From a virus, in the IMG/VR virus record IMGVR_UViG_3300034073_003351, positions 1 through 26,729 of that record: a stretch of 26,729 bases of DNA. One strand, written 5' to 3'. The position numbers were made by a program, and so were the translations under genes. How positions within the stretch are numbered: the first letter of the stretch is position 1; each line of letters begins with the position of its first letter. Positions 5,772-11,635 of this stretch are shown here, one piece after another. The notes beneath the pieces are model-generated. The model was not told where the DNA came from and ran no database searches. It saw only the letters and a program-made list of their open reading frames with translations.

Positions 5772-6647
5772 ATGACACTTACAGAGTTTTTTGACGGCTT
5801 CTATCGGCCCTTGAAGTTGCGAGGAAAGTCGGCAAACACGTTCCGGCTTTACGGATGCACCATCCGGGCCTTCGGGAAATTCCTGGGCCGGACGCCGCTC
5901 CTGGAGGACATTGCCGACGAGATTACCCTCGCTCGGTACATGGATCACCGGCAGGAACGTGTTTCGCCATATACGGCCGAGAAGGAGCGGTCGCAGATAA
6001 TGGCGATGGCGCGGCTGGCAAACGACCGCAGAATGATCCCGTCGCTACCGTCCTGCGAGCCGTCACCGCTGCCCGACCGCGTGCCAGTTGCGTGGTCGGA
6101 AGACGAGTTGCGGCGACTGTTTGCCGCAGCGTCCACGACGCCCGGGTTCGTTGGGCTCGTGCCGGCCAGTGAATATTTCACAGCTCTCATCACGGTCTGC
6201 TTCGAGACCACCGAACGGATCGGGGCGCTGTTGGATGTCGAGCTGGCACACTACTCGAGGCCGTGGCTCACGGTTCCGGGGGAAATCCGCAAGGGCGGCC
6301 GGCGAGCCCGGGTCTACGAGTTGTCCGACCACGCCTGTGACCGGATCGAGCGGCTGTTGCTGGTCAACAAAGATCGGATCTTTGCATGGAAACAGGCGAA
6401 GACGTACCTCTGGGACAGGCTGCGCAAGATCCTCGACCGGGCCAAGCTCGCGGGGAAGCGGCTGGCGTTTCAGCAAGTGCGGCGATCGGCAATCAGCCAC
6501 ATGGCCAGGGCCGCGAACGACGCCGCCGCGGTGGCGTTTGCCGGTCACGCTCAGGCCGCCACGACGCGGCGCTGGTACATCGACCCGAGGTACGCGAGTC
6601 GCGGCCCAAAGCCCGGCGACATGCTGCCGCGATTGGACGCCGGTTGA
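5772..6647 (+). CDS. int: Tyrosine-family phage integrase
   Basis: This 291-aa protein is the only confident plus-strand gene. An N-terminal SAM-like DNA-binding domain (about 1-85, starting LTEFFDGFYRPLKLRGKSAN) is followed by the catalytic domain. Catalytic residues visible: R149 in ETTERIGALL, K174 in EIRKGGRR, R237 in QQVRRSAIS, H259 in AGHAQ and Y269 in RRWYIDP. The usual His of the HxxR box is Gln here. It would recombine attP with a host attB to insert or excise the phage. ATG 5772 is used because GGTGGAGG stands just before it; a TTG at 5754 would bury that site. A tRNA lies 129 bases beyond its end on the other strand, a frequent attachment-site position. The tag 'int' is a family name, not an orthologue claim. 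Confidence 0.9.
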   Translation: MTLTEFFDGFYRPLKLRGKSANTFRLYGCTIRAFGKFLGRTPLLEDIADEITLARYMDHRQERVSPYTAEKERSQIMAMARLANDRRMIPSLPSCEPSPLPDRVPVAWSEDELRRLFAAASTTPGFVGLVPASEYFTALITVCFETTERIGALLDVELAHYSRPWLTVPGEIRKGGRRARVYELSDHACDRIERLLLVNKDRIFAWKQAKTYLWDRLRKILDRAKLAGKRLAFQQVRRSAISHMARAANDAAAVAFAGHAQAATTRRWYIDPRYASRGPKPGDMLPRLDAG

Positions 6648-6775: not shown

Positions 6776-6850
6776 TTGCAGCGGCCGGACTTGAACCGGC
6801 GATCTCCGGGTTATGAGCCCGGCGAGGACTCCACGCTCCTCCACGCTGCT
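6776..6850 (-). tRNA. tRNA with CAT anticodon, initiator (fMet)-like
   Basis: A complete 75-nt cloverleaf folds on the minus strand. Acceptor arms are GCAGCG/CGCTGC with positions 1 and 72 A-A mismatched; D-stem GAGG/CCTC; anticodon stem CCGGG/CCCGG with loop CTCATAA; T-stem GCCGG/CCGGC with loop TTCAAGT; discriminator A; no encoded CCA. Three G-C pairs at the base of the anticodon stem, a purine 11-pyrimidine 24 pair (A-T) and an unpaired 1-72 end are the hallmarks of bacterial initiator tRNA. It begins four bases after the ParB-like stop, so it is probably cotranscribed with it. It could be a working phage tRNA or host tRNA sequence kept for integration. Confidence 0.8.
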
Positions 6851-8080: not shown

Positions 8081-8377
8081 TCACCTCGTGCCGCTGTCGC
8101 CGCTCATTGATTCGCGGATTTGCCGCTGGGCTGTCGCCAGCTCCTCGAGCGTCTCAGCCTGTCGCTCTTGGCTGCGGCCAAGCGTCTGAAGAGTTTCGGT
8201 TGTTTGCCTCAGAAACGCAGTGTGGCTCTCCACGACCGGAACGAGCACGGTTTGATGCACGGCGATCGCCGCCTCTCTGGCACAAAACATGACCACAACC
8301 AACATCACCACCGGAAACCCGAACTCACGGGCGATCCGGATGCCAACGTCGATCATGTCGCTCGTTTGCTGGGTCAT
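8081..8377 (-). CDS. Single-pass membrane protein with coiled coil; holin candidate
   Basis: This 98-aa protein has an N-terminal lead (MTQQTSDMIDVGIRIAREFG), one membrane segment FPVVMLVVVMFCA around residues 21-33, and a long hydrophilic coiled coil (LRQTTETLQTLGRSQERQAETLEELATAQRQI). The layout resembles small phage holins of the BhlA/UviB type. ATG 8377 has GAGGAG upstream and overlaps the previous stop as ATGA; an upstream extension to 8533 is Arg/Asp-rich and lies in the neighbouring gene. It is adjacent to another membrane protein and a secreted protease, which supports a lysis role. Holin activity is inferred. Confidence 0.6.
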   Translation of the reverse strand: MTQQTSDMIDVGIRIAREFGFPVVMLVVVMFCAREAAIAVHQTVLVPVVESHTAFLRQTTETLQTLGRSQERQAETLEELATAQRQIRESMSGDSGTR

Positions 8378-8688
8378 GGCTGCTCCTCGTGTCGCTCGGT
8401 CCACCATCGGATCACGATCACCTGCGCGATCGACGAAATCGCCCACAGCACGATCATGGCGGTGAACGAAAACCCGCAGCTGTCGCGGTATTTGGCACGT
8501 ACCCGCCGCTCCACAGCCCGGCGGAGGATCCACGGCGTTTTGAACTCATCGGCCGCAACTGCCGTTTCCCGGTCGAGGGCGGCGACCGTCTCGGCCGCGA
8601 TCGCATCGCACCGCTCCCGGCCAAGCATGGCCCGGCGGACGGGGTGGGCCGCCAACTCGCGCCAGACGTGATCGCGAAAATCGCTCAC
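8374..8688 (-). CDS. Small membrane protein of the lysis/export cassette
   Basis: This 104-aa protein has a soluble helical N-terminal two-thirds (VSDFRDHVWRELAAHPVRRAM, then a basic RRAVERRVRAKYRDSCG) and one C-terminal membrane helix FSFTAMIVLWAISSIAQVIVI near 71-91, followed by RWWTERHEEQP. The basic stretch before the helix suggests the N-terminus stays inside. GTG 8688 overlaps the protease stop as GTGA and has AAGGTGG upstream. It could be a second holin or a spanin-like helper; no lipobox or spanin motif is visible. Confidence 0.55.
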   Translation of the reverse strand: MSDFRDHVWRELAAHPVRRAMLGRERCDAIAAETVAALDRETAVAADEFKTPWILRRAVERRVRAKYRDSCGFSFTAMIVLWAISSIAQVIVIRWWTERHEEQP

Positions 8689-9482
8689 TTGGCCACCTTG
8701 CACTTCCCGTCCGGGCACGGGGAGCCGGCGGCCACCTGTCGCGGCAGCTTGACGCCGGCCAGGAACGCCCGGACCCGGGTGGAGCACGGGCCGACCGTCG
8801 CGTTGGGTCGGGCTCCAAACAGCACGCCGGCCAATTCTCCATCGGCGTTGAAGATTGGTCCGCCGGAATCGCCCTGCCGGGCCGTCGCCCGCAGCTCAAC
8901 GAGCTCGCGGGGGTGTGAGCCCGTGGGCGACAGGAACTCGACGCATGCCCCCGACTCCTCGCGGTACTTGTAGGGGGCCGCGCCGTAGCCTGCGATCGTA
9001 AGCATGTCTCCCAGCCGGGGAGCCCGGGCCGCGATCGTGACGGGCAACGCGGTCGGAGTGTCGACCACGATCGCAGCGAGATCCCACGCGTCGTCCCACT
9101 TCACCACGCGGCCGCCGGATCGAGAGCCGTCCGGCCAATGGACAATGATGCCATCACGGTGGCTTCGGACGACGTGCCAGTTCGTGAGGACCAGGCCGTG
9201 AGATTCCGACGCGGCCACGAGCACGCCGGACCCGGAAGCCCGGCTCGGGCCATCGGACGTCTCGACGCGGGCCACCACTGGCCGGGGCTCGCCGGGCCGG
9301 GCGGCGGCCATCGGCCCGGAAGGGTCGGGCGTCTCGCCGGTGCCCTCGCACTCCGGGCAGACGTAGCGGATCGGACCCGTGCCGACCGTGCGGCGACCGT
9401 CGCACGTGTCGCACGTGGCGGCATCGGCCGCGGTGGAAGCGATCAGCAGCACGAGCACGGTGGAAAGTCGAAGGCCGTTCAT
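8685..9482 (-). CDS. Exported trypsin-like serine protease with N-terminal DnaJ-type Cys motif
   Basis: This 265-aa protein has a signal peptide (about 1-21, hydrophobic LSTVLVLLIASTAADAA). A short zinc-ribbon-like module follows with CDTCDG (24-29) and CPECEG (42-47), repeats of the CxxCxG type seen in DnaJ. The remainder is a chymotrypsin-fold protease with triad H103 (LTNWHVV), D134 (AWDLAAI) and S206 (QGDSGGP). It would cleave proteins after export to the periplasm or cell surface. ATG 9482 overlaps the preceding stop as ATGA. Longer readings to 10217 are an Arg/Pro-rich shadow of the papain-like gene. It follows a papain-like protease and precedes two membrane proteins. Activity is strongly supported by the triad; the target, possibly the cell envelope, is inferred. 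Confidence 0.85.
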   Translation of the reverse strand: MNGLRLSTVLVLLIASTAADAATCDTCDGRRTVGTGPIRYVCPECEGTGETPDPSGPMAAARPGEPRPVVARVETSDGPSRASGSGVLVAASESHGLVLTNWHVVRSHRDGIIVHWPDGSRSGGRVVKWDDAWDLAAIVVDTPTALPVTIAARAPRLGDMLTIAGYGAAPYKYREESGACVEFLSPTGSHPRELVELRATARQGDSGGPIFNADGELAGVLFGARPNATVGPCSTRVRAFLAGVKLPRQVAAGSPCPDGKCKVAK

Positions 9483-10366
9483 CCTGCTGGCTGGCTCCAG
9501 TCGTCGGGGATGGTCATTGACGCGATGGCAAACGACCCCTTCCACGCCGACCGGGCGGTCCGCTCGGAGTCGTAGCGGGTCACGTCGTAGCTGTCCGGGT
9601 AGGCCATCGCCCGCTCGCCGGCCATCCACTTGGCCCACGGCACCGCGTGACCGTTGCGGCCGACGCTCACGACCAGGCCGTGGAGAACACAACACACCGC
9701 CTGCTCGTAGCTGGCCGGAAAGATCACTTCCAGCGGCCGAAACCACTGGGCCGTTTCCTGCCAGCCCTCCGGAAACTCTTTCAGCGGCACCCATCGGCCA
9801 CGCGACTGATTCAGTCCGCCGGCCCCGGTCGTGCCGACGAGCGAATGCTTGAAGCGGTAGTCGCGCGGCTGGGTCTTCTCGGGCAGCATCCCGCGACGGG
9901 CGGCGATTTCGAGCACTTGGCGGACGTTCGCGCCGCCCCATTTGTTGGGGTTTGCCTCGGCGTACACCGACAGCGGCGACAGCCATACGGAGCCGACGTC
10001 GCCCGATTCCTGGTAGCGGAAATCCTTCCGCGGACCGTCGGGATAGACCACGCCGCGCGCCCGGTTGCGGGCCGCCTCGGCGTTGGTCCGCAGCGAGTGG
10101 CACGTGCATTCGTGGGTCGGGGTTTGGTTCGTGTAGCGGTCGATGAAGTTGATCGGCCACGCGTTGGCGCGGTCGTTTTCCCGGGCCTTGTCGGCCCAGT
10201 CTCGCGGCTCGATCCACAGCGATTCCGGGAAATCGCGGGCGGCCGCGCCGCAGGCGTCTCGGAGAGCGTCGGTCGTGTCCTCGGCGGCCAAGTGGTCCGG
10301 GTAGCCGTCGTGCTCAGCCGGGAAGACGTCGATCAGGCTCGGGTCGATCGGATCGAAACTGGTCAT
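9479..10366 (-). CDS. Papain-like (C1 fold) cysteine protease
   Basis: This 295-aa protein shows papain features in order: oxyanion Gln Q81 and nucleophile C87 in NQTPTHECTCHS, a middle WLSPLSVYAEANP-KWGGANVRQVLEIAARRGMLPE corresponding to the papain LSxQ...GG...G-I region, general base H240 in GRNGHAVPW, and D258 with S259-Y260 at the place of papain's Asn-Ser-Trp. No signal peptide is seen, unlike its two neighbours. It would hydrolyse peptide bonds. ATG 10366 has GGAGG upstream and overlaps the stop before it as ATGA. Placement next to an exported protease suggests lysis or capsid/tail maturation; which is not shown. The C1 call rests on ordered motifs, not an alignment. Confidence 0.68.
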   Translation of the reverse strand: MTSFDPIDPSLIDVFPAEHDGYPDHLAAEDTTDALRDACGAAARDFPESLWIEPRDWADKARENDRANAWPINFIDRYTNQTPTHECTCHSLRTNAEAARNRARGVVYPDGPRKDFRYQESGDVGSVWLSPLSVYAEANPNKWGGANVRQVLEIAARRGMLPEKTQPRDYRFKHSLVGTTGAGGLNQSRGRWVPLKEFPEGWQETAQWFRPLEVIFPASYEQAVCCVLHGLVVSVGRNGHAVPWAKWMAGERAMAYPDSYDVTRYDSERTARSAWKGSFAIASMTIPDDWSQPAG

Positions 10367-10755
10367 GGCACGGCCTCCACGATGGCGGCCTCGGTGGCCG
10401 GCGCGGGCACGACGCCGATCGCGCTCGTGCCCGACAGCACGACGAGTGCCGGGAGCCCCGCATGGCGGGCCGCATCCAGGGCGGAGCGATACTGCTCCGG
10501 CACGTCGCCAGTGCCGTCGGTGGTGTCGGCCTCGAACAACGTCGCCACGATTCGCCGCTCCCGGTTGAGCCGGTTGATGCCGACGGTCACGTAGGTGGGG
10601 ATCGCGTGGTCGTCCTTCTCGTAGACGTAGACCGCGGCCGTGGCCTTGGCGGGCTCATTCACAACAGGCTTCTGCCATGACCAGCCGGACCCGGCCGGCA
10701 ACGCCAGCCCGGTCAACAGCACGCCTCCGGTGATCAGGGCGAGAAGCGGCCTCAC
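10363..10755 (-). CDS. Exported small protein of unknown function
   Basis: This 130-aa protein has a clear signal peptide (MRPLLALITGGVLLTGLALPAG) and a mature part with alternating strands and helices (AAVYVYEKDDHAIPTYVTVGI, RNRERRIVATLFEADTTDG pattern, then AARHAGLPALVVLSG), reminiscent of a thioredoxin-like alpha/beta fold without a CxxC. GTG 10755 overlaps the previous stop as GTGA with GGAGG upstream. It immediately precedes the papain-like protease and could be an inhibitor, chaperone or envelope factor. No catalytic motif is seen. Confidence 0.58.
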   Translation of the reverse strand: MRPLLALITGGVLLTGLALPAGSGWSWQKPVVNEPAKATAAVYVYEKDDHAIPTYVTVGINRLNRERRIVATLFEADTTDGTGDVPEQYRSALDAARHAGLPALVVLSGTSAIGVVPAPATEAAIVEAVP

Positions 10756-10997
10756 TTGGTCGCCTCCGGCTTCAGCAGCTCGTCAAGAAGTTGCTGGCAG
10801 ACGGTCACGGCCTGTGACTTGCCGGCATCGCGGAGCCTCGCCGCCAGGTCGATCACGAGACGCAGATCGTCCACCGGTGCCCGAGGGGTCTGCTTCGGCC
10901 ACGATACCCGACCGGCCACTTTCCGCACGATGGCCACGACGGCATATCCAACGAGGCCGATCCCGACGATGGCCTGTACCCACTGAAACCAAGACAT
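10752..10997 (-). CDS. Small single-pass membrane protein
   Basis: This 81-aa protein starts MSWFQWVQAIVGIGLVGYAVVAIVRK, one N-terminal membrane helix, followed by a soluble helical tail (DDLRLVIDLAARLRDAGKSQAVTVCQQLLDELL). ATG 10997 has GGAGG at a normal distance; GTG 11000 one codon before is nearly as good. It overlaps its upstream neighbour by one base. Size and topology fit a small holin-like or envelope protein; function unknown. Confidence 0.6.
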   Translation of the reverse strand: MSWFQWVQAIVGIGLVGYAVVAIVRKVAGRVSWPKQTPRAPVDDLRLVIDLAARLRDAGKSQAVTVCQQLLDELLKPEATK

Positions 10998-11254
10998 CAC
11001 AACCCCTCCGCTTTGGACGCAAGGAACCGGACGAGGGCCTCGCCCTCAGACGTTTTCAAAATCGCGACCAGGTGGGCGACCAGCTGGTCGTCGAGCCGCG
11101 TGTCGGTCTTGGCCGCCATCCATGCCAGAGCATCGCCGGCGACCAGCGACTTCGCGCTCGGATCCGGCTCGGCCAGATAGCGCTGGCAATACCGCAGGAA
11201 CGGTGCCCATTCAGCCAGGAGCCGCGCTTGCTCGATGATGCTTGGACGGGGCAT
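10997..11254 (-). CDS. Small helical protein of unknown function
   Basis: This 85-aa protein starts MPRPSIIEQARLLAEWAPFLRYCQ and is helical with no membrane segment; it has an acidic middle (LDDQLVAHLVAILKTSEGEALV). ATG 11254 has GAGGAAG upstream and lies one base after the preceding stop. It belongs to the membrane/protease cassette by position only. Confidence 0.55.
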   Translation of the reverse strand: MPRPSIIEQARLLAEWAPFLRYCQRYLAEPDPSAKSLVAGDALAWMAAKTDTRLDDQLVAHLVAILKTSEGEALVRFLASKAEGL

Positions 11255-11255
11255 T

Positions 11256-11627
11256 TCACTTCCTCACGAGCGGGAGCATCGACTCGATCGAGCCGGCGGC
11301 GATCGCCAGCACGAGCGACCGCACCGACGGCCGTACGAGGATCCACAGCGGCCACGCCGCGAGCGGAACCGCCTTGTCGGCGACGGCGTCGAACAGGCTG
11401 CCGACGGCCGTGAGGGCGAGCGACTTTTTCTCCGCCCCGCTCATCGTGCTCACGGAGTCGAGGAACGTCACGACCAGCCGAAGCAGGGCGACCATGAGCT
11501 CGCCAAACTCCGACCAGGTCAGACCATCGGCCGCCGTCGACTTGGCGGCGGCAACGAACGCGGCGACCTTGGAGAGCAGGCCGCCCTCGAGGGATTCGGC
11601 AGCGGCGGAAGGGGCATCGGCAATCAT
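11256..11627 (-). CDS. Amphipathic/hydrophobic protein of unknown function
   Basis: This 123-aa protein begins MIADAPSAAAESLEGGLLSK and contains several hydrophobic helices: ELMVALLRLVVTFLDSV (about 43-59), AVPLAAWPLWILV (86-98) and SLVLAIAAGSIESMLPLV (104-121). The last two could insert in a membrane. ATG 11627 has GAGGAT upstream; an upstream extension to 11996 is Arg/His-rich shadow sequence. A membrane role, perhaps an additional holin-type protein, is possible but not shown. Confidence 0.55.
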   Translation of the reverse strand: MIADAPSAAAESLEGGLLSKVAAFVAAAKSTAADGLTWSEFGELMVALLRLVVTFLDSVSTMSGAEKKSLALTAVGSLFDAVADKAVPLAAWPLWILVRPSVRSLVLAIAAGSIESMLPLVRK

Positions 11628-11635
11628 GGGAATCC

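Follow-up and report, generated by a model that had tools for sequence, protein, structure and literature searches.

How might a phage leave its host if its candidate lysis genes encode proteases and no recognisable peptidoglycan hydrolase? This question is raised by a gene block in the IMG/VR virus record IMGVR_UViG_3300034073_003351, which we analysed as one stretch of 26,729 nucleotides (the window) and for which a protease-based lysis or envelope cassette had been proposed. Read along the minus strand from 11254 to 8081, the genes g85, TMc82, EXP130, PAP, TRYP, TMb104 and TMa98 form a seven-gene, translationally coupled block (Table 1). Adjacent genes overlap by 4 bp (8374-8377, 8685-8688, 9479-9482, 10363-10366 and 10752-10755); at the junction of g85 and TMc82 (10997-11000), the overlap is 4 bp with a GTG start and 1 bp with an ATG start. 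A codon-usage gene caller, a simple one of our own making, returned the identical gene set. The limits of the block should be extended from 11000 to 11254, and probably also to 11630 to include g124. The coupling, the exported small protein and the three small membrane proteins (four if g124 is counted) named in the original prediction are thus all present. The window integrase gene (5772-6647, plus strand) lies near a tRNA-Met gene (6776-6850, minus strand), a possible attachment site. Terminase, portal and capsid genes were not seen in the window, which therefore represents an incomplete phage; its own missing endolysin is weak evidence, and complete relatives serve as the test.

Table 1 Genes of the coupled block and the gene directly preceding it.
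Gene	Product	Position	Strand	Basis
g124	Hydrophobic/amphipathic small protein, directly before the block	11256..11630	-	Hydropathy, position
g85	Small soluble protein, opens the coupled block	10997..11254	-	Conservation
TMc82	N-terminal membrane helix and conserved soluble tail	10752..11000	-	Hydropathy, conservation
EXP130	Exported protein	10363..10755	-	Conservation beside PAP, profile-profile match
PAP	Papain-family (C1A-like) cysteine protease, 295 aa	9479..10366	-	Motif and predicted fold
TRYP	Exported S1/HtrA-like serine protease, 265 aa	8685..9482	-	Pfam, PDB, conserved triad
TMb104	Small, C-terminal membrane helix (about residues 71-95)	8374..8688	-	Hydropathy, conservation
TMa98	N-terminal membrane helix (about residues 13-41)	8081..8377	-	Hydropathy, conservation

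PAP of the window had no match in Pfam and no noteworthy one in PHROGs, profile searches of PDB sequences returned chance matches only, and no relatives occurred among 50,697 annotated phage records. Among viral contigs, 132 relatives were found; as these loci encode the 295-aa protein and its neighbour genes recur beside it, the block is not a chance arrangement. In an alignment of 44 viral PAP sequences, Gln81, Cys87 and His240 were among nine invariant positions. An earlier AF2 model from 21 close relatives only had reached a pLDDT of 50.7 and no structural match, which was fixed by the distant viral relatives: with the 44-relative alignment, the model (pLDDT 90.8, pTM 0.91) adopted a papain/cathepsin fold. 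In Foldseek, its best PDB match was xylellain, along with procathepsins (prob 1.00, E 3e-5); cathepsins K, L and B, papain and papain-type proteins of uncultured phages were matched as well. The predicted catalytic residues are Gln81-Cys87-His240-Asp258. At the position of the papain Asn, the window lineage has Asp258 (DSY), whereas the relatives L165, L182 and L188 have NSWG; this textbook motif was found in distant PAP relatives of planctomycete genomes. One distant relative, L188, scores above the Pfam cut-off for Peptidase_C1 (PF00112; 38.6 bits versus 20.7), while PAP of the window shares the fold and the Gln-Cys-His order of family C1A (PF00112) and stays below that cut-off. Taken together, the invariant Gln, Cys and His, the model, the Foldseek matches, the NSWG-bearing relatives and the Pfam match of L188 indicate that PAP is a papain-type protease with Asp for Asn in the window lineage. 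The papain-like protease originally proposed from the sequence was therefore upheld by motif and by the structure prediction carried out on the PAP part of 8685-10366. Compared to xylellain and the cathepsins, with which it shares predicted fold and Gln-Cys-His order, PAP differs by its low identity (8-14%), the Asp for Asn in the window lineage, its phage operon and a Pfam score that misses the cut-off. Phage endolysins of the CHAP and NlpC/P60 types are also cysteine enzymes of the papain-like superfamily that serve lysis; neither Pfam nor Foldseek matched PAP to these families, and its best structural matches are C1A enzymes instead.

The second protease, TRYP, starts with the ATG at 9482; a longer open reading frame from 10217 is an artefact. 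TRYP matched Trypsin_2 in Pfam (E=1.5e-17) and DegS/DegQ in the PDB (about 4e-9), and the His, Asp and Ser of its triad are kept in aligned relatives, in agreement with the predicted exported, trypsin-like protease with a full triad. With a signal peptide (assessed, as throughout this study, by eye and hydropathy) and the His-Asp-Ser triad, TRYP resembles HtrA/DegP-type S1C proteases; a PDZ domain was not found, as Pfam gave trypsin-type domains only and the C-terminus follows shortly after the protease domain. Residues 24-51 hold a DnaJ-like CxxC...CxxC motif where the mature protease begins, and the N-terminal part matches PHROG 3931 at 5e-7. A C-terminal C-x-x-G-x-C motif (variants CPDGKC, CEKGTCP, CPTGQCP, CRDGSC and CQSGTCP) recurs in TRYP of the window (about 8688-8720) and in exported proteins of L182, L185, L188, L189, G001 and G002.

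EXP130 adjoins PAP in all relatives whose neighbouring stretch was available for comparison, and it matched EXP of distant phages in a profile-profile comparison (96%). An exported or EXP-like protein is encoded upstream of PAP in L179-L182, L184, L185, L187, L188 and L192-L194, with a small membrane protein after PAP in several of these distant phages. No signal peptide was seen by eye and hydropathy in PAP of the window lineage. In L189 (9191-11233), EXP and PAP are fused into one 680-aa protein with a signal peptide, which indicates that PAP acts outside the cytoplasm at least in this phage; the papain domain of the fusion is interrupted by an intein at its catalytic cysteine. The N-terminal membrane anchor of a second papain-like protease, PAP2 (see below), likewise points to action outside the cytoplasm. 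In L165, L166, L178 and L190, an exported CxxC thioredoxin occupies the place of TRYP (truncated in L178 as the gene was called). EXP itself was suspected of a thioredoxin fold from its strand order, but this was not supported (profile match 2%).

TMc82, TMb104 and TMa98 each have one strongly hydrophobic segment, which in TMa98 is followed by a long hydrophilic and probably coiled segment. By its topology, TMa98 may be spanin- or holin-like, and position and hydropathy make g124 a holin candidate. None of the cassette proteins matched known holin or spanin families in Pfam or PHROGs.

Among 25 sequence sets (the window is one of them, and a few overlap), EXP and PAP were present in every one, TMc and g85 were found in 23, and TRYP, TMb and TMa in 22; the tape measure protein of the window occurred in 8. 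The block is better conserved than the tail genes. One relative, G002, has just EXP and PAP out of the seven block genes. The location varies. In the window, G008 and G012 the block follows the tail genes; in G004 and G005 it separates a tail-terminator-like gene from the tape measure gene; in G006, G007 and L099 it lies between prohead-protease-like and capsid genes, and distant relatives have it ahead of the terminase genes. The block thus travels as one piece among head and tail modules that are not related. The place between tail genes and integrase, earlier taken as that of a lysis cassette, is therefore not general.

The same slot can also hold a different cassette. On contig G001, the second phage (L070) carries the flanking genes of the window around a membrane protein, a 381-aa N-anchored protease (PAP2) with the motifs GPHGSC, NHC and NSWG, and three small exported or membrane proteins. 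The 77-kb contig (IMGVR_UViG_3300042453_002958) holds two related phages, with PAP and PAP2 cassettes, and represents either tandem prophages or a chimeric assembly. PAP2 gave no Pfam match; the family is papain-like, with invariant Q100, C106, H272 and N304 and an N-terminal membrane anchor, and very common (590 viral loci; 24 of 337 genomes, all of the same order). No PAP2 gene occurred in 126 PAP loci, and no PAP, EXP, TRYP or TM gene in 80 PAP2 loci; these loci are stretches, not whole genomes, and some contigs count twice among the 126. Both kinds of loci have g124 and phage backbones in common, and g124 precedes the cassette in 98 of the 126 PAP loci and in 70 of the 80 PAP2 loci. This supports an exchange of two papain-type cassettes in one slot, which would fit the behaviour of a lysis module.

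Five complete relatives were available for a search for a classical endolysin: G002, G006, G007 and G011, taken as circular and complete on end repeats of 123-127 bp, and a prophage (G026:C154), which lies with host genes beyond it on a 40-kb contig of a Planctomycetaceae MAG, encodes a PAP relative and is bounded by 55-bp direct repeats (218-272 and 34446-34500), the right copy inside a tRNA-Arg gene. Pfam revealed no peptidoglycan hydrolase (amidase, muramidase, transglycosylase or peptidoglycan endopeptidase) in the five, nor in the 37-kb G004, a long relative that is of the same type as the window; the same scans of the complete relatives did find terminase, portal, capsid, integrase and recombination families. 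They covered all prophage proteins except PAP, TRYP and the prohead protease, and, for G006, G007, G011, G002 (at E<=1e-5) and G004, the further protein clusters unlike those of the prophage, very short genes excepted; the match lists were complete in every case. In 26 further long records, neither Amidase_2 nor Phage_lysozyme was found, and 25 records showed no NlpC/P60. Correspondingly, the Pfam-scanned proteins of the window, itself a fragment, include no peptidoglycan hydrolase and no Amidase_2, as had been stated from the sequence. A search of 377 genomes with Phage_lysozyme, aimed at endolysin-bearing planctomycete prophages, gave five matches, three of them on contigs (G687, G520 and G489) whose G+C content of 33-45% points to possible binning contaminants; no PAP-like gene was found on the Phage_lysozyme-bearing contigs, which with such contaminants among them do not provide a clean test of anti-correlation.

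We consider it fairly probable that the block is a host-exit (lysis) module of temperate planctomycete phages, with the papain-type PAP in the place of the classical endolysin. The conserved block and the lack of a recognisable wall-digesting enzyme in five complete relatives suggest that these phages may exit their hosts by proteases instead of an endolysin. In such a module, the small membrane proteins would permeabilise or span the inner membrane, across which PAP would be released or exported together with EXP. PAP, joined by TRYP in the window lineage, would then cleave, in the periplasm, proteins or peptides by which the envelope is held together, while the exported thioredoxin of other lineages would probably keep the cysteine protease reduced or open disulfides. 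The proteases may attack protein layers while PAP itself or enzymes of the host open the peptidoglycan. Sequence or prediction provides the gene content, the folds and motifs of the proteases, the conservation, the exchange in the slot and the absence of known endolysin families; from late expression through the export route of PAP in the window lineage, the identity of the holin and the substrate to lysis itself, the steps are ones that we infer. Of the lysis-cassette reading as first proposed, the coupled proteases and membrane proteins and the lack of a classical endolysin in relatives stood, whereas the protein-dominated envelope and the general position between tail genes and integrase did not.

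Planctomycetes were earlier described as having an SDS-resistant protein wall (PMC3422733), whereas peptidoglycan has since been shown biochemically, in sacculi sensitive to lysozyme (PMC4432640). Among ten planctomycete genomes with PAP-family matches, eight encode at least three proteins with a Mur-ligase domain, a family that also covers folate synthases. A wall without peptidoglycan is therefore unlikely, and the premise of a protein-dominated envelope is unsupported as stated. Since the hosts apparently produce peptidoglycan, this layer still has to be opened, which counts against lysis by proteases, and C1A enzymes are not known to degrade peptidoglycan. The lack of a visible signal peptide in PAP of the window lineage, the lack of matches to holin or spanin families and the restriction of the block to EXP and PAP in G002 also speak against the lysis reading. 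Lysis genes beside capsid genes, as seen for the block in some phages, are unusual, and an endolysin of an undescribed family, to which family searches are blind, could be among the many unassigned proteins. A hydrolase of this kind encoded elsewhere might lyse the cell, with the cassette as a second step that strips outer-membrane or surface protein layers. The Mur-ligase-domain proteins, the lysozyme-sensitive sacculi (PMC4432640) and the many proteins of the complete genomes that belong to no family speak for this explanation; we nevertheless regard it as unlikely, as five complete genomes of very different make-up, all with at least EXP and PAP, hold no hydrolase family.

It is quite improbable that the cassette instead shields the infected or lysogenic cell, its exported proteases and membrane proteins remodelling receptors to exclude other phages. 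Such a function would suit the protein types, the exchange of gene sets and the temperate lifestyle (integrase, att sites). However, exclusion genes are usually patchy in distribution, while at least the block core is present in every complete genome, integrase-less phage-like clusters retain the cassette, and the block lies within the structural-gene run on the same strand, in a slot occupied by alternative sets. A role in particle maturation or entry, as structural or tail-associated enzymes, is very improbable: the position between prohead protease and capsid genes in some phages would fit, but the cassette carries signal peptides and membrane helices, its position is independent of head and tail genes, and, where identified by sequence and adjacent head-gene matches, a separate prohead-protease-like gene (c29) or head fusion (c39) lies among the head genes, so that the maturation role once offered as an alternative is not borne out.

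As a host-exit module, the block would resemble the holin-endolysin-spanin cassettes of tailed phages in being compact, in combining a candidate lytic enzyme with small membrane proteins, in lying among structural genes and in being swapped as a unit. It differs from them by papain-type and HtrA-like proteases, no peptidoglycan hydrolase and no known holin or spanin family. The pseudomurein endoisopeptidases PeiW and PeiP of methanogen phages lyse an unusual wall via peptide (isopeptide) bonds, not glycan (PMC4592898, PMC2989375). They resemble the role proposed for PAP by description, as phage enzymes for an unusual wall, although the hosts differ. Both belong to MEROPS C71, a protease family other than that of PAP. 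The literature searched contained nothing relevant on lysis by planctomycete phages, and the way in which phages open planctomycete cells is not described there.

More tentatively, lysis without endolysin may extend across planctomycete phages and gene-transfer-agent-like elements, with an exported papain-type protease, a thiol reductase or HtrA-like protease and membrane proteins destroying load-bearing envelope proteins, and with two unrelated module versions swapping at one locus. If proteases do open planctomycete cells, dsDNA phages have an exit route for which no peptidoglycan hydrolase is needed, and protein links must be essential to the planctomycete envelope, a point of relevance to the long-standing debate on a protein wall. 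The proteins would be candidate tools for opening these hard-to-handle bacteria, and the cassette a marker for recognising planctomycete phages and possible gene transfer agents.

In several species, phage-like clusters at one chromosomal place keep a cassette of the PAP or PAP2 kind together with an exported CxxC thioredoxin, which also speaks for the proposed host-exit role. A syntenic cluster was observed in G231:C35 (about 201.9-228.8 kb), G353:C11 and G509:C1 (about 2.917-2.939 Mb; L165-L170, L296-L299), comprising the PAP cassette, terminase, portal, protease, capsid and tail genes without an integrase. The same host genes lie on either side of it in different species, indicating vertical inheritance, and the cluster may be a domesticated prophage or a gene transfer agent. 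At 91-93% identity, PAP is as well conserved here as the capsid-like protein. Related clusters (L306, L307, L308 and L310 in genomes G359, G147, G505 and G496) have, at the same location ahead of the terminase genes, the PAP2 cassette along with a thioredoxin (WCPYC or WCPHC).
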